Positions 22,981 through 30,029 of a stretch of 39,491 nt of DNA are shown here, piece by piece. The notes beneath the pieces are model-generated. The model had not been told where the DNA came from. It saw nothing but the letters and a program-made list of their open reading frames with translations, and did no database searches. Both the position numbers and the translations under genes were made by a program. The stretch comes from an uncultured Pseudomonadota bacterium (lineage in GTDB: Bacteria > Pseudomonadota > Zetaproteobacteria > Mariprofundales > Mariprofundaceae): contig CAJXLC010000020.1 of NCBI GenBank assembly GCA_913055645.1, positions 1-39,491 on the forward strand, given 5' to 3'. How positions within the stretch are numbered: position 1 is the first letter of the stretch; each line of letters starts with the position of its first letter.

Positions 22981-23787
22981 ATGATACACACGGAACAATT
23001 AAGCCGTCATTTTGATGATGTTATCGCTTTAAATAACACCGATATTCATATCAAAGCGCAACAAACAACCGTCATTATGGGTGGTTCAGGCTCTGGCAAA
23101 ACAACCTTATTGCGTTTGTTGGCAGGTTTGGAATGCCCAACATCAGGGCATATTTGGTATGGCGACGATGATTTAAATGGCATGAGCCAAAAACGTCTTT
23201 ATCAATTACGCGCTCGTATGGGCATGCTTTTCCAATATTCTGCACTGCTTAACTCGTTAAATGTGTACGATAATGTTGCCTTTCCTTTGGTTGAACACAC
23301 AAAATTGGACAACTCCGTGATTCACACCATGGTCACCATGAAACTTGAACAGGTTGGTCTGCGCGGCTTTGAAAATCTCATGCCATCACAACTCTCCGGT
23401 GGCATGGCAAAACGTGTTGCATTTGCCCGTGCATTAGCAATGGATCCAGAAGTTGTATTTTTTGATGAGCCAACATCAGGATTGGATCCTATTTCAGCAG
23501 GTGTAATAGCATCACTTATTGGCAATATCACCAAACACACAAAAATGACCTCCATTGTCGTCACCCATGATGTTCATGCAGGGCTTGAGATTGCTGACCA
23601 TGTTATTTTATTATGGCAGGGTAAAGTAATTGCAGAAGGGACATCTGATGTTATTCGCAACTGTGATGATGCGCGTGTTCAACAGTTTATTGAAGGACGT
23701 CCCGATGGTCCTATCCCATTCTCACGTAGCGAAACATCTTATATTGAAGATCTTTTGCATAAACCTGGCACAGTGAGGATATCGTGA
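22981..23787 (+). CDS. mlaF: Phospholipid ABC transporter ATP-binding protein MlaF
   Basis: MlaF drives the inner-membrane MlaFEDB complex that exchanges phospholipids with the periplasmic carrier MlaC. The 268-residue product has Walker A GGSGSGKT (34-41), signature LSGGM (138-142), Walker B VVFFDE (158-163), D-loop SGLDP and switch His196 in VVTHD. The LSGGMAKRVAFARAL form, with MAKR, is typical of the Mla/Mkl group rather than of import ABC proteins. It is first in mlaF-mlaE-mlaD-mlaC and its TGA overlaps the mlaE GTG. The usual fifth subunit, the STAS protein MlaB, is not encoded nearby. Confidence 0.95.
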   Translation: MIHTEQLSRHFDDVIALNNTDIHIKAQQTTVIMGGSGSGKTTLLRLLAGLECPTSGHIWYGDDDLNGMSQKRLYQLRARMGMLFQYSALLNSLNVYDNVAFPLVEHTKLDNSVIHTMVTMKLEQVGLRGFENLMPSQLSGGMAKRVAFARALAMDPEVVFFDEPTSGLDPISAGVIASLIGNITKHTKMTSIVVTHDVHAGLEIADHVILLWQGKVIAEGTSDVIRNCDDARVQQFIEGRPDGPIPFSRSETSYIEDLLHKPGTVRIS

Positions 23788-24584
23788 ACAAAACCAATAC
23801 CTCACAAAACACCTTTATTATCTTTTTTGGCTACTTGGGTCGCTGTTTTTTACGTGCCATTGAAAGCATAGGCGATGCAGCAGTATTAAGTGCAACATCA
23901 TTGGCGCACCTATTTCACAGACCATGGCAAGGCAAACATATTGTTTTACAGCTCTATGCATTAGGCGTTGGTTCATTTGTTATTATTGCTATTACGGGTG
24001 CTTTTACAGGTATGGTTTTGGCTCTTCAGGGTTATTATACCTTGGCAAAATTTGGCTCCGAGTCGCTACTTGGGTCTGGTGTGGCATTGTCAATTATTCG
24101 TGAGTTAGGTCCTGTATTGGGTGCTTTTATGATGGTGGGTCGTGCAGGCTCAAGCATCACAGCTGAGATTGGCATTATGCGTGTGACAGAGCAGTTAGAC
24201 GCTTTACAAATGATGGCAGTCAACCCCAAGGCTAGGGTCATCTTACCTCGTATTATTGCTATGATTATCGCACTGCCTTTATTGGTTTCAATGTTTGATA
24301 TGATTGGGCTAGGCGCAGGGTATATTGTTGGTGTTGAGCTATTGGGTGTGAATGGTGGTGCCTTTGTGGGTGAAATGATTGCCAAGGTTACACCTATGGA
24401 TTTATATGCAGGCTGGGTAAAAGCACTCGGTTTTGGCATACTCATCGGCATTATTTGCACATACATGGGCTATCGCGCAACCCCCACAACAGAGGGTGTC
24501 GCGAAAGCCACAACACAAGCAGTGGTCGCAGGATCAGTCGGGGTACTTGTACTCGATTATATCCTGACATCATTTTTTCTGTAA
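23784..24584 (+). CDS. mlaE: Phospholipid ABC transporter permease MlaE
   Basis: MlaE is the membrane-spanning subunit of the Mla phospholipid transporter. The 266-residue product has an amphipathic N-terminal helix, then five hydrophobic helices, and family motifs GAFTGMVLALQGYYTLAKFG near 72-90, ELGPVLGAFMMVGRAGSSI around 110-130, and the conserved AEIGIMRVTEQLDALQMMAVNP. The start is a GTG whose first bases overlap the mlaF stop (GTGA), and length is standard (E. coli 260). The next gene, mlaD, follows after 99 bases that hold a small AT-rich hairpin. Confidence 0.94.
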   Translation: MNKTNTSQNTFIIFFGYLGRCFLRAIESIGDAAVLSATSLAHLFHRPWQGKHIVLQLYALGVGSFVIIAITGAFTGMVLALQGYYTLAKFGSESLLGSGVALSIIRELGPVLGAFMMVGRAGSSITAEIGIMRVTEQLDALQMMAVNPKARVILPRIIAMIIALPLLVSMFDMIGLGAGYIVGVELLGVNGGAFVGEMIAKVTPMDLYAGWVKALGFGILIGIICTYMGYRATPTTEGVAKATTQAVVAGSVGVLVLDYILTSFFL

Positions 24585-24620
24585 CCGAGACTTGAGTCAC
24601 ATTGCAATGAACCTGCAATG

Positions 24621-24660
24621 AAATAACAAAGTGTGGCATTCATACATTATTTTGTTATTT
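24621..24660. other. AT-rich hairpin between mlaE and mlaD
   Basis: AAATAACAAA and TTTGTTATTT are perfect ten-base inverted arms around a 20-base loop, within the 99-base gap. The stem has one G or C pair in five or so, so it is weak, and it could tune the mlaFE to mlaDC ratio or mark a regulator site. Two direct copies of TGCAATGA lie just before it (24603-24621). Confidence 0.4.
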
Positions 24661-24683
24661 AATCACTAAAAGAGAGGAACAAT

Positions 24684-25133
24684 ATGCAATCCTATCGCAA
24701 AACTGAAATTACTGTGGGCGTCTTTGTATTCCTTGGCATCATGGCTATGGCTTGGATGGCTATTAAGTTAGGACAAGTGGGCGGCTTAGGCTCATCGGGT
24801 TATCATGTATCAGCAACGTTTGAAGATGCAGGTGGTTTACGTGCAGGTGCTGATGTAATGTTAGCAGGTGTTTCGATTGGTCGTGTCGCATCAGTACAAT
24901 TAAAAGGACAGGAAGAAGCATTGTTGCAGTTGGAAATTCAACAAGGTGTAAAACTGACTACTGATGCGATTGCAGCGGTACGAACCAAAGGTATTATTGG
25001 CGAACGCTATGTTCGGATTAGCCAAGGTGCGGATGATGAAACTATCGAAGATCATGGCGAAATCGAAGAAACAGAATCTGCTATCAATATCGAAGATTTA
25101 GTCAGTAAGTATATTTTCTCAAGCTCAGAGTAA
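24684..25133 (+). CDS. mlaD: MCE-domain phospholipid-binding protein MlaD
   Basis: MlaD forms a hexameric ring anchored in the inner membrane that passes phospholipids between MlaE and MlaC. The 149-residue product has one N-terminal membrane anchor (TVGVFVFLGIMAMAWMAIKL), then a single MCE domain with GLRAGADVMLAGVSIGRVASV and AAVRTKGIIGERYVRI, and a short acidic tail with the hydrophobic end of the pore helix (NIEDLVSKYIFS). It is shorter than the E. coli protein (183) mainly at the C-terminus. AGAGGAAC precedes the ATG. It lies between mlaE and mlaC, in the usual order. Confidence 0.94.
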   Translation: MQSYRKTEITVGVFVFLGIMAMAWMAIKLGQVGGLGSSGYHVSATFEDAGGLRAGADVMLAGVSIGRVASVQLKGQEEALLQLEIQQGVKLTTDAIAAVRTKGIIGERYVRISQGADDETIEDHGEIEETESAINIEDLVSKYIFSSSE

Positions 25134-25202
25134 TATTTACCCCTCCCTCACGTACATAGGTGTATTAAGCTTTGCAAAGATATTTAGAATAAGGAGTCAG
25201 AT

Positions 25203-25823
25203 ATGAACATCACGATAAAGAGCTTGCTTGCATTTGTACTATTATGGGTTGCAACCCCCGTTTGGGCGGAGGACACAACAGTTGATGGTCCTAAGGTTGT
25301 CGTTGAAACAGCTGTAAACGGCATACTGCATGCATTAGAAAATAGAAAGGATCAAAGCAAACTCACTGAAGAAGATCGCGATGCTATTCGTCAACAGGTT
25401 GAAGGTCGTTTTGATTATCGTGAAATGGCTCGTCGCAGTGTGGGCAGGGCTTGGAACAAACAAATCCCTGAACAACAAGCTGCATTCACTGAAACATTTC
25501 GCCAGTTGTTAGAACGCTCATATGGTAATCGTTTATCCGAATACCATGGTCAAACCGTTGAATTTGATGATACTGAATTCAAAAAGAATAAAGCACGGGT
25601 TAAAACCCATGTTATTGATAGCAATAAAGTTACACCTGTATTTTATCGATTACACCAAAATTCTGGTACATGGCAGGTCTATGATATTAAAATTGAAGGT
25701 GTCAGCTTGGTCGGCACATTCAGAAAAGACTTCAAGGGACCTTTGAAAAAAGATGGCTTTGACGGTCTATTAAAAGCATTGCAAGATAAAGTTGCGCGTT
25801 TAAAAGAAAAGGATGCCAGCTAA
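25203..25823 (+). CDS. mlaC: Periplasmic phospholipid carrier MlaC
   Basis: MlaC shuttles phospholipids across the periplasm between MlaD and the outer-membrane MlaA complex. The 206-residue product has a clear signal peptide (SLLAFVLLWVATPVWAED, cleavage probably after VWA), followed by the MlaC/Ttg2D fold with RFDYREMARRSVGRAWNK and FTETFRQLLERSYGNRLSEY, both signature stretches, and a terminal VSLVGTFRKDFKG. AAGGAG lies in good position before the ATG. The mlaA partner gene is not within this window. The YhdP-like gene follows after 30 bases. Confidence 0.94.
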   Translation: MNITIKSLLAFVLLWVATPVWAEDTTVDGPKVVVETAVNGILHALENRKDQSKLTEEDRDAIRQQVEGRFDYREMARRSVGRAWNKQIPEQQAAFTETFRQLLERSYGNRLSEYHGQTVEFDDTEFKKNKARVKTHVIDSNKVTPVFYRLHQNSGTWQVYDIKIEGVSLVGTFRKDFKGPLKKDGFDGLLKALQDKVARLKEKDAS

Positions 25824-25853
25824 GGTATATTTGTTACACATAAGCAACTTCGC

Positions 25854-28800
25854 ATGAAGTTATCTTTAAGTAACATGCAAAAAATACTACAACGTGTTGC
25901 TGTACTACTATTGCTGCTTATCACCTTGACTGGTGTGGCTGCATGGTTATTCATGCCTGACATCAACCGTATGCGCCCGCAGATTGAATCCTTACTCAAA
26001 CAAGAGATGCAATTAAGCAAGCTTAGCCTACAGGGGCTATCGTGGTATTGGGCTGGTCATATCGGTTTTAAAGTTGATCACTGTAGCTTTAAAACGCAAG
26101 ATAAGATGGTCATCGTTGATGATACATCACTGACTATTCAGGTATCATTGATAGGCCTTTTACGTGGCGAACTGTTGCCCAAACGCATCGCACTTCAGGG
26201 TGGTTTATTACAACTTGATGCTTCCAATTATGATCATCTAAACCACCCAAACATTTCGCCAACGCACCTGATTATGGATGATATGAATGTGCAATGGCGT
26301 TATGCATCCTATCAAGGAAACCTAAAATCTGCTGCCTTGGATATAGATATTCCCTCTGGGTCTGCTCTCTTACGCATGCCTGGCTTCCGATTAACGGCAA
26401 CATTGGATTCACAATCCCAATTAGTTTCCGCAGATTGGAAATTTGATAATATTCATTGGTTACCCATTGAATGGCAAAAATTTATGCTCGGCAATGTGTC
26501 AGGCGAAGCTCACCTACAACAGCAAAATACATTGCAGTGGAAGTTGGACATGCAAACACAAGGCTCTTCTGCTGCTATCAATGTGCCTACAGGACCCTTT
26601 CAGCTACCGTTTAATCAATTACTTTCAACATGGCTCATCAGCTTTGATAAAGATTATAATCTACAACAATGGAATATTCCTTCGCTCAAATGGCTACAAG
26701 GAAAGAATCAGGGTATGGCTCGTGCACACTGGCAGGATGGTAAATTCTCACTCAGTGCAAATTCTGATTATTTGGACATGCCGTTACTATGGTCATGGCT
26801 GCGCCCATTGGGTAACACAAAAAGCTGGCTGACTTGGCTAAGCAGCATGCAGCATGGCGTTGCTTCTGACATTAAAGTTTCACTTAACGTGCCATGGGAG
26901 CATCCTCTTCAAGGATTACCTAAAAATAAGGATTGGGATAAGCTGCGTTATCATGTAAGTGCGCAAGTTGACAATGCTGATGTTCATTTGGGCTTTGATG
27001 ACAACAAGCTTACCCATAGTAAAGCAAAAGTAGATGTAGATGAGAATGGCTTAAAAGCGGATATTAGTCACGTTGAATTACCGCATCAGGTAGGCACAGC
27101 ATCTGGAACATTGAATATGCCATGGAAAACCTTGGATATACATATGCAAGCTCATGGGCAAACAGATGTTGGAAAACTACAACAATGGTTTAGACCATCC
27201 CGCGCCGACAATCTACGCTGGATTGATGCCCCTGCTACCACAAGCGTTCAGCTTCAATGGAACCCTTTGCAGGATGAACCTAGCCTAGCCCATGTGTCAC
27301 TCAAGCCATCTGCAACATGGCATTTGGAGCCAAATAATATTCCTCTACAAATTAAATCAGGAGAAATAATATGGGATATGCAGCAGGGATTACATGCTAA
27401 AAAGTTAAACATTCAAAGCAAACTTTTACATGGCGAGATGTCATTCCAAGCCAAAGAAACAGCCCAACAAACTGTGCAACTAACATCCTTAACAAGTCAC
27501 ATTCAAGGCGATTTTTCTGAGCTTGATGCATACTATCATATTCCCATTGAGCAAGCCGCTGGGCAGCTACAAGCAGATATTAAATTTGATAAGCATTGGT
27601 ATGGCACATTAAACTTTAATCAAGCATCTTGGAAAAACTTTCTTGGCTCCCACAAAACAATAAAATCTCCTATGCAAGTGAGCTTTCAAGGAGATCTGGA
27701 AAATGGAACCCTTAAACTGCATAAGTTATTCTGCAATCAAGCCCCCATTCAGTTATCGGGATCAGGTCAAATAAACAACTATGGTTTGAAATTAGATTTA
27801 ACATCGCTAAAGGCTCCAGCTTTTAAAGGTGCGCTCAAAGTCTCCGCGCCTTTTACTAAAGACCCATGGGAAATGATGATTCATGCGCAATACTTAAATC
27901 GCAAAGCGCTACCTGAACAGCTTCCCCAAACTGAAGCCCTTGCAGATAAACCTTGGTCTCTTCAAGCTAATATCGGCAACTTCGTTTGGGATGATGCAAC
28001 CATGACAGGCGTATCCATGAAGCTTGCCTCAAAACGCAATAGTGCCGGCTTTTTTAAAGCTCATGAGATTCATTCTGGCACACTCGTTCTACAAGACATA
28101 TCTGCCTTATTTGCTTTACCTGGCGGTAGCGCTGTAGATCTAAGACATTTATCAGCAGCCATGGGTAAGCAGCATTTAGTACTATCCGCATCATTAACAC
28201 CTGAAACTGATGGAGGTATGCGCTGGCAAGGTTTTGCACAACTTGATGGTGATTTTGGTGGTACAATGCAACGGGCAAAGCTTACAAAACTATTTAAAGG
28301 CGGTGATATGCACGCCCTGTTTCTAGGACAGGGTATCTTGCTTAAAGATCAACCTTGGTGGGATGGACTACGTGGCCGATTACGTTTACGTGTTGATGAT
28401 GGTATTATCCTCAAAGGTGGTACGCTTACCAAAACATTGGCTGCTGTAAGTCTCGTGGATTTACCTGATTTATTTTTTGGTGCTCGCAAGGATTTGAGCC
28501 ACGATGGTTTGTATTATAAACGATTACAAATTGAGGCTACCCTGAAGGAACAAATGTTTAATATTCATAAACTTGGCTTACGTTCATCTGCTATGGATAT
28601 TGCGGGTGAAGGGAGTTTAAATCTTGAAAAAGATCATATTGACTTAAAGATGATTGTTCGTCCATTTCAAAACTTGGATGCCCTGCTTGGAAAAATACCC
28701 TTGCTTCGAGACCTTTTAGGCGGGGCTGCACACTCACTTATACGGAAGATTTATCATATGCATGGCTCTATAGCCAATGCTACTGTCGATCAATTATCGC

Positions 28801-28904
28801 CTGAAGAGGCGGGTTTATCACAATCTGGGTTGGTTGAAACCTTGCTAAGCATTCCTGATTTATGGTTTGGCAAAAACACAACCACTCAGCAGTCAAAGCC
28901 ATAA
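25854..28904 (+). CDS. YhdP-like AsmA-family envelope protein (intermembrane lipid transport)
   Basis: A large inner-membrane-anchored periplasmic protein, likely a bridge-like lipid carrier. Of 1016 residues, one N-terminal membrane helix (VAVLLLLLITLTGVAAWLFM, about 12-31) is followed by extended beta-rich sequence without cysteines clusters or catalytic motifs, the DUF3971/AsmA style of YhdP, TamB and YdbH. The end carries the YhdP-type stretch with DLKMIVRPFQNLDALLGKIP then LLRDLLGGAAHSL. YhdP is known to affect phospholipid flow to the outer membrane. Being 30 bases behind mlaC, it is probably part of the mla transcript, supporting lipid transport. It is shorter than E. coli YhdP (1266). 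The stop abuts the convergent SPOR gene with no gap. Confidence 0.82.
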   Translation: MKLSLSNMQKILQRVAVLLLLLITLTGVAAWLFMPDINRMRPQIESLLKQEMQLSKLSLQGLSWYWAGHIGFKVDHCSFKTQDKMVIVDDTSLTIQVSLIGLLRGELLPKRIALQGGLLQLDASNYDHLNHPNISPTHLIMDDMNVQWRYASYQGNLKSAALDIDIPSGSALLRMPGFRLTATLDSQSQLVSADWKFDNIHWLPIEWQKFMLGNVSGEAHLQQQNTLQWKLDMQTQGSSAAINVPTGPFQLPFNQLLSTWLISFDKDYNLQQWNIPSLKWLQGKNQGMARAHWQDGKFSLSANSDYLDMPLLWSWLRPLGNTKSWLTWLSSMQHGVASDIKVSLNVPWEHPLQGLPKNKDWDKLRYHVSAQVDNADVHLGFDDNKLTHSKAKVDVDENGLKADISHVELPHQVGTASGTLNMPWKTLDIHMQAHGQTDVGKLQQWFRPSRADNLRWIDAPATTSVQLQWNPLQDEPSLAHVSLKPSATWHLEPNNIPLQIKSGEIIWDMQQGLHAKKLNIQSKLLHGEMSFQAKETAQQTVQLTSLTSHIQGDFSELDAYYHIPIEQAAGQLQADIKFDKHWYGTLNFNQASWKNFLGSHKTIKSPMQVSFQGDLENGTLKLHKLFCNQAPIQLSGSGQINNYGLKLDLTSLKAPAFKGALKVSAPFTKDPWEMMIHAQYLNRKALPEQLPQTEALADKPWSLQANIGNFVWDDATMTGVSMKLASKRNSAGFFKAHEIHSGTLVLQDISALFALPGGSAVDLRHLSAAMGKQHLVLSASLTPETDGGMRWQGFAQLDGDFGGTMQRAKLTKLFKGGDMHALFLGQGILLKDQPWWDGLRGRLRLRVDDGIILKGGTLTKTLAAVSLVDLPDLFFGARKDLSHDGLYYKRLQIEATLKEQMFNIHKLGLRSSAMDIAGEGSLNLEKDHIDLKMIVRPFQNLDALLGKIPLLRDLLGGAAHSLIRKIYHMHGSIANATVDQLSPEEAGLSQSGLVETLLSIPDLWFGKNTTTQQSKP

Positions 28905-30029
28905 TCATTTCACTAGCTTATTATTCTCCAACCAACAGTCTGCCACCTCTAGTTTCGTGCAAATATCTAACATTGCCTCTCTAGCCAGAGTTCGCGTGCT
29001 ATAACGGCCTGATTGAACACGATAAATAAGCTTACCTGCAGATCTTTTACTTACCACAAAGGTCTGAAAAAGATAATTATGTTTAATCATTGCGACCATT
29101 TTTTCTGCATTTTTCATGCTTTGAAATGACCCAATATTAATTACCCATTCCGCAGCTAACATATCAATATTACGAGGCTTTTTATTATAGGAATGTTTTG
29201 AGTAAACATGCTTTCCTTCATCCATAATCAACCATGGGGCGCTCGCATCGCGGCGCAATAAATATAACTCTTTATCATCATTTGCATTGTAATTGCTAGA
29301 TTGATAACCCTGCCTAAAAGATACAATCACCGCTTCACCTGCATCATTCGCATCAGGCACAATCTTTATATCTGAAATTTGAATGTGTATAAATGTTTTC
29401 TTCCGGTTAATCCTTTGTTTATGTTCAGACCATGATTGATAGTTATATTTATCTGTTTGAAAATTCACATCATAATGGTTCATATAAGCCTTATGATTCA
29501 GTGATTGCCAATCCTTAACCCATGATTGTACAGCACTTTCAACAGATGCTCGAACAGCCGCTGTTAAAGTACCCGTTTGTTCTTCTTGAGCCGGCATGGC
29601 AGCACTATCTATTCGCATGAATGCCTGCAAACGCTTTTCCGCCTCTTCTAATGCAGAGGTAAATTCAGCATTCCCAAGTTTTTTAATACCATCATGTGCC
29701 GCATGCGCATAACTACCTGCCCGTAATGCCGCCGCAAAAGACTTCCTCCGAAACGCCTCGCCTTTTATCAAGGCTGCCAAAGGATTTTTTTGAATCACAT
29801 CAGTGCTTAACCAAGCAAGTGCTGCATCAACTTGCTCATGCTCAAGCTCCAATATCGCCAACAACACTTCCCTATCACCCTCTGCCAAAGACAATACTTT
29901 TTCACTCTGATTGGATTTAAGTAAATTATAGGCGGTTTGTTTCGTCATGTGTTCGGCTGTCGCATTCAAACTTTGCAAAGGCATCAACAACACAAGCCAC
30001 ACAATCCATACAGGCACTTTTCTAAACAT
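28905..30029 (-). CDS. Periplasmic protein with NTF2-like and SPOR domains
   Basis: Probably a peptidoglycan-associated protein. The 374-residue product has a signal peptide (VWIVWLVLLMPLQSLNATA), helical TPR-like pairs up to 150, an NTF2-like domain (about 165-295) with WVKDWQSLNHKAYMNHYDVNFQ and VIVSFRQGYQSSNYN and LYLLRRDASAPWLIMDEG, of the type attached to Csd6/LdtA-like L,D-transpeptidases, and a C-terminal SPOR domain (AAEWVINIGSFQSMKNAEKM through VQSGRYSTRTLAREA), which binds denuded glycan at division sites. No transpeptidase Cys motif is present. Its ATG overlaps the M14 peptidase stop (TAATG), so both are co-translated in the glyQS operon. The domain reading is from pattern recognition; the exact partner is unknown. 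Confidence 0.75.
   Translation of the reverse strand: MFRKVPVWIVWLVLLMPLQSLNATAEHMTKQTAYNLLKSNQSEKVLSLAEGDREVLLAILELEHEQVDAALAWLSTDVIQKNPLAALIKGEAFRRKSFAAALRAGSYAHAAHDGIKKLGNAEFTSALEEAEKRLQAFMRIDSAAMPAQEEQTGTLTAAVRASVESAVQSWVKDWQSLNHKAYMNHYDVNFQTDKYNYQSWSEHKQRINRKKTFIHIQISDIKIVPDANDAGEAVIVSFRQGYQSSNYNANDDKELYLLRRDASAPWLIMDEGKHVYSKHSYNKKPRNIDMLAAEWVINIGSFQSMKNAEKMVAMIKHNYLFQTFVVSKRSAGKLIYRVQSGRYSTRTLAREAMLDICTKLEVADCWLENNKLVK

Follow-up and report, generated by a model that had tools for sequence, protein, structure and literature searches.

How phospholipids arrive at the outer membrane has been debated for a long time, and the route is hard to dissect in Escherichia coli because three bridges are redundant there. 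A stretch of DNA from a genome of the class Zetaproteobacteria (Mariprofundales) raises this question in another form: may the Mla pump, which would return phospholipids to the inner membrane, and a bridge, which would deliver them outward, be set together by one operon? The window, by which we mean the whole stretch of DNA analysed, corresponds to a single contig (39,491 bases), and the genome has 1.88 Mb at 99.5% completeness. In the window mlaF, mlaE, mlaD, mlaC and a gene for an AsmA-like protein of 1016 residues stand head to tail, all on the plus strand (22981-28904), with the following features.

22981..23787, + strand: mlaF, MlaF-type ATPase, an open reading frame with MlaF NF008809 as best NCBIfam match
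23784..24584, + strand: mlaE, permease of 266 residues, PF02405 239.3 bits
24684..25133, + strand: mlaD, short single-MCE type of 149 residues, TIGR04430 140.9 bits, PF02470 over its cut-off
25203..25823, + strand: mlaC, periplasmic carrier of 206 residues, PF05494 161.9 bits
25824..25853, + strand: mlaC-yhdP gap of 30 bases, without a terminator-like site
25854..28904, + strand: YhdP-type AsmA-like gene, 1016 residues, PF13116 71.6 bits

The coordinates of the open reading frames and the scores of the family models agree with the original prediction of mlaFEDC and a YhdP-like gene running in one direction across a 30-base gap. Upstream of mlaF lies hrpA, on the opposite strand. On the other side a SPOR/Cds6_C gene (28905-30029) is convergent with yhdP, the two stops abutting (28904/28905) with 0 bases between; in Mariprofundus ferrooxydans PV-1 (L144), which shows the mlaD-mlaC-yhdP order as well, a relative of this gene follows yhdP at a distance of about 2 kb.

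The identities of the Mla proteins were computed with family models. MlaE scores far over the PF02405 cut-off of 22.5 and shares 44% identity with E. coli MlaE, and MlaC is likewise well above the PF05494 cut-off of 26, with MlaC chains of the PDB matching it at E 4.4e-16 and weaker. MlaD passes the short-type model TIGR04430 (cut-off 135). As for MlaF, its best NCBIfam match NF008809 gives 278.5 bits, under the cut-off of 441, in an alignment that reaches the model end; it has 47% identity to E. coli MlaF, and the alignment to PDB MlaF extends into the C-terminal extension. Gene context and this extension support the assignment as a putative MlaF. The reading of MlaC as HpnM was rejected, with 98.5 bits against the TIGR03481 cut-off of 160.1 and an HpnM-passing paralogue elsewhere in the class. 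Some class members have a second MlaC relative (L053:3183-4965 and L054:1790-2677); the one of L054 is HpnM by NCBIfam (TIGR03481, 210.6 bits), and the one of L053 adjoins a radical-SAM gene that is HpnH-like by eye. The original prediction noted no MlaA at this place, which holds for the window but not for the genome, where another contig carries mlaA (G000:C34:18220-18807, PF04333 224.8 bits). Beside it stands a gene for a small membrane protein, BI-1-like by eye (L081:8905-10976, on G000:C34), and a similar gene is found directly behind mlaC in genome G004 (L042:6680-7984).

How far can the long protein be taken as a YhdP? PF13116 is its sole Pfam match (cut-off 46), and a profile comparison with four AsmA-like proteins of E. 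coli places YhdP well ahead of the other three, with E 2.2e-6 against 7.2e-4 for AsmA, 0.0095 for YdbH and 0.091 for TamB. Both results speak against the explanation that the protein does not function as a YhdP and is instead a diverged AsmA-like rod which carries a different cargo or works in a different direction, for which there are nevertheless several points: the alignment with E. coli YhdP covers the C-terminal part alone (profile columns 842-985) with weak likeness elsewhere, BLAST against E. coli YhdP gives 17% identity over 114 residues, the class YhdP profile finds no match in E. coli YhdP, the protein has 250 residues fewer than the 1266 of E. coli K-12 YhdP, and a 777-residue AsmA protein of the same genome outscores it on PF13116 with 91.2 bits. 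On balance we think a different cargo or direction improbable, and we keep the name YhdP-type. The likeness to E. coli K-12 YhdP consists in the PF13116 family, the homologous C-terminal part and a predicted N-terminal membrane helix, whereas similarity elsewhere is very low, the gene here is linked to mla, and the genome is without TamB or YdbH candidates.

The computed AlphaFold2 model of the protein (pLDDT 82.9, pTM 0.56) has an N-terminal helix at residues 5-32 followed mostly by strands, about 56 by hand count. The helix is the predicted membrane helix and the remainder a long predicted beta rod. Beta strands are spaced by about 0.48 nm, and the strand count multiplied by this spacing puts the predicted rod at no more than about 27 nm, which would be enough for the periplasm; a literature search for the length of YhdP returned no paper. 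A Foldseek search with the model returned ApoB100 in its best rows (E 3.2e-8), a second fold search returned TamAB chains with Z 7.6-7.7 over 186-191 residues, level with unrelated beta proteins, and a PDB sequence search with the 1016-residue protein gave nothing convincing.

From this arrangement we infer one transcript. For an operon that would join the return pump with the main outward bridge speak the conserved order, the short gaps, the lack of any terminator-like site in the 30 bases between mlaC and yhdP, and the presence of the pair in 24 of 24 good genomes of the class (defined below) that have neither TamB nor YdbH. Against this reading stand the gaps of 99 bases between mlaE and mlaD and of 69 between mlaD and mlaC, which could hold promoters (mlaF and mlaE overlap, at a distance of -4), the four genomes with mlaFEDC and no yhdP found (G017, G018, G044, G077), the placement of yhdP elsewhere in G004, the 777-residue AsmA protein, and the weak likeness to E. 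coli YhdP outside the C-terminal part. Promoter-like sites occur at chance level, 18 being found where 18.7 are expected.

By its own terms the original prediction would have been refuted had the pairing occurred in this genome only, but the computed survey of neighbours finds it across the class. A YhdP match just behind mlaC is present in 69 of 78 class genomes, at least 60 by a 5-kb criterion (a YhdP match at most 5 kb downstream of mlaC on the same strand) and 9 by region maps; strict adjacency of the two genes was read only from the region maps and the maps of named loci. In 59 of 65 named class loci yhdP is directly behind mlaC, but many of these loci come from assemblies already included in the 78, so that the two counts are not independent; among the six named loci without yhdP, the sequence of L167 ends right behind mlaC. 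The gap between the two genes has a median of 36 bases and is at most 50 bases in 43 of 59 rows, one of which (L107) represents the latter portion of a gene broken by a frameshift. Outside the count are nine of the 78 genomes. G004 has yhdP elsewhere while mlaC stays with mlaFED, and G005 has yhdP elsewhere with MlaC not found; G017, G018, G044 and G077 keep mlaFEDC, a long YhdP not being found in them; and in the assemblies of G041, G066 and G073 mlaC, yhdP or both were not found, the sole MlaC match of G066 being the weakly matching paralogue at L053. In a sister family (f2) the mlaC-yhdP pair stands alone with mlaFED on another contig, as seen at L059 (G002), L060 (G001) and L061 (G003), with L090 and L092.

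YhdP proteins from other genera share about 27-41% identity with that of the window, and the operon is rarely flanked by the same outer genes (the SPOR gene in 1 and hrpA in 2 of the 65 named loci), so the mlaC-yhdP order seems to be maintained by selection rather than to reflect recent divergence. Beyond the class the pairing was not seen in any of the 52 sampled genomes of the phylum with both genes (0/52 within 5 kb on one contig, the distance being measurable in the 22 of 52 with both genes on one contig), and YhdP was found at none of 15 distant MlaC loci. In 11 of the 52, yhdP is located 10-22 kb upstream of mlaC and has the same orientation, thus the two genes are regional neighbours there too. 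This suggests another explanation, linkage without shared control, in which mla and yhdP were already neighbours in an ancestor and came closer together in the class, and the genes have promoters of their own and no joint regulation. However, yhdP is upstream of mlaC in those 11 genomes and downstream in the window genome, the gaps between mlaC and yhdP are mostly under 50 bases, and the tight order has persisted although the sequences diverged strongly and other neighbours changed; we therefore judge linkage without shared control unlikely, and continue with joint expression as the preferred reading. No description of the mlaC-yhdP pairing was found in the literature, nor any work on Mla and phospholipid in Zetaproteobacteria, in a search of titles and abstract openings with most subscription journals outside its scope.

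The locus agrees with the mlaFEDCB operon of E. coli K-12 in the order F-E-D-C and in its protein families, but yhdP replaces mlaB; in E. coli about 52 kb separate yhdP from the mla operon. That MlaB is missing, as first proposed, was borne out at the level of the genome and of the class: a search with a small STAS profile found no STAS open reading frame in the window, and in computations with the family model NF033618 none of the 78 class genomes has an MlaB over the cut-off, which the E. coli control passes. A STAS open reading frame stands directly 3' of mlaC in 4 of 15 non-class MlaC loci, which indicates that the local search is able to detect such a gene. In the whole genome the top STAS match belongs to a cluster of STAS, HATPase, TPR and second-MCE genes and reaches 71.7 bits with TIGR00377 (cut-off 53.45), a model of anti-sigma-antagonist type; of the remaining matches, a weak one lies inside a 509-residue open reading frame and a third is at chance level. 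The gene of the top STAS match was rejected as the MlaB of mlaFEDC-yhdP, since it is part of the other MCE cluster and its score is that of an anti-sigma antagonist. The absence of MlaB is not unusual in itself, since MlaABC are "sparsely distributed" according to the available part of PMC10665443, and we infer that MlaF works without MlaB.

A further question is whether the YhdP-type protein shares its task with other bridges. In E. coli, YhdP, TamB and YdbH are jointly essential, and the loss of YhdP slows outward flow in mlaA* cells, as stated in the accessible portion of PMC8593681. By the Pfam models the YhdP-type protein is the only member of this trio found in the window genome, where the computed search gave no TamB candidate (PF04357) in the whole genome and no YdbH candidate; bridges outside the three Pfam models escape such detection, and the 777-residue AsmA protein could be a further route. 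In the class TamB was found in 11 of 78 genomes and YdbH in 19, with neither in 55. Among the 39 good genomes (at least 90% complete and at most 5% contaminated) the mlaC-yhdP pair is present in 37, and the 24 of them without TamB and YdbH all have it. The two good genomes without the pair have another bridge, G044 TamB and G004 YdbH, a number too small for statistics. None of YhdP, TamB and YdbH was found in G017, G018 and G077 (84-88% complete), which may reflect either incomplete assemblies or bridges missed by the models.

Based on these results, our preferred explanation, held with moderate confidence, is that one operon sets the ATP-driven return of lipids and a probable main outward bridge together, co-expression and the two directions being read from the genes and their order. 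MlaFED and MlaC, with MlaA encoded elsewhere, would carry stray phospholipid from the outer membrane to the inner membrane at the expense of ATP, while phospholipid would pass along the YhdP-type rod, anchored in the inner membrane, to the outer membrane; with yhdP behind mlaC, the return pump and the outward bridge would be made in step. Because it is the only trio member found in the genome, the YhdP-type rod is probably the main outward route, and perhaps essential. The absence of TamB and YdbH from the genome gives more weight to the view that two opposing routes are joined in one array, and the interpretation in the original prediction is partly supported.

The closest precedent, by analogy, is the mlaEFD-tolC-tamB operon of Veillonella parvula and other Negativicutes, in which the loss of tamB rescues the loss of mlaD, showing opposed action of an AsmA-like protein linked to mla (PMC10665443, in its available text); it offers an experimental parallel for opposing routes in one array. 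Both systems encode an Mla transporter side by side with a large AsmA-like bridge, and both lack MlaB. In the class studied here, unlike Veillonella as portrayed in the consulted part of that source, the bridge is of YhdP type and not TamB, MlaC and MlaA are present, MlaD is short, and the order starts F-E-D. The pairing is thus a class-wide variant of a known arrangement. In two class genomes an outer-membrane efflux (OEP) gene (TolC-like, PF02321) stands between mlaD and mlaC, at L074:6360-7712 in G068 (83.5 bits) and at L050:7468-8817 in G044 (79.8 bits), which recalls the tolC of the Veillonella operon. No such rescue was seen in Brucella when an AsmA-like gene and an MCE operon were both mutated, according to the accessible text of PMC12436622, so opposed action is not a rule.

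MlaC and YhdP might also form a functional unit on one path, the carrier handing phospholipid to the rod or taking it from there. The genomes G001-G003 of family f2 point this way, for in them the only mlaC is with yhdP and the only MlaE is on another contig, beside mlaF in the two that are readable; moreover, mlaC and yhdP are among the most closely spaced genes in the operon. Yet the split in f2 is probably one event in one family, G004 has the reverse arrangement with mlaC by mlaFED and yhdP elsewhere, the four genomes G017, G018, G044 and G077 keep mlaC where no long YhdP was found, and a comparison of MlaC distances with YhdP distances between pairs of 46 loci gave no specific correlation (partial r -0.24). 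Co-evolution of the two proteins was accordingly dropped as unsupported by the distance correlation, a crude test on related loci that covers the 46 of 65 with all five genes complete. We regard a single path through both proteins as rather doubtful. There is little probability, too, in the bolder form of our preferred reading, that the operon holds, MlaA aside, the whole known two-way phospholipid traffic (pump, carrier and sole trio bridge) and that MlaC and the YhdP rod interact directly, the carrier feeding or draining the bridge; this direct action is suggested because the sister family G001-G003 keeps mlaC-yhdP away from mlaFED.

After Veillonella, the locus provides a second example of an array that combines an Mla transporter with a large AsmA-like bridge, and it does so in a distant lineage. 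Where the single trio bridge is encoded together with the return pump, yhdP is predicted to be essential and the levels of pump and bridge to be tied, and such an mla-yhdP array in an iron-oxidising class would ease testing of the balance between the two lipid flows.

Two further MCE operons of the window genome are worth recording. The second, mlaE2-mlaF2-mlaD2-TPR-HATPase-STAS, lies on the minus strand of another contig (G000:C13, L079:2326-6489) and combines genes for an MCE transporter, a STAS protein and a SpoIIAB-like kinase. The same operon is found 3' of yhdP at L071, L072, L105, L118, L124, L125 and L154, and HATPase-STAS without the rest of it is found there at L120, L128 and L133. 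Control of the STAS protein MlaB by phosphorylation is left open in the available part of PMC7367683, and this operon, with its STAS and kinase genes, could serve as a natural test of such control. The third (L089:7139-9585, on G000:C32) consists of a permease, an ATPase-like gene, a 294-residue MlaD-domain protein and a TPR gene.
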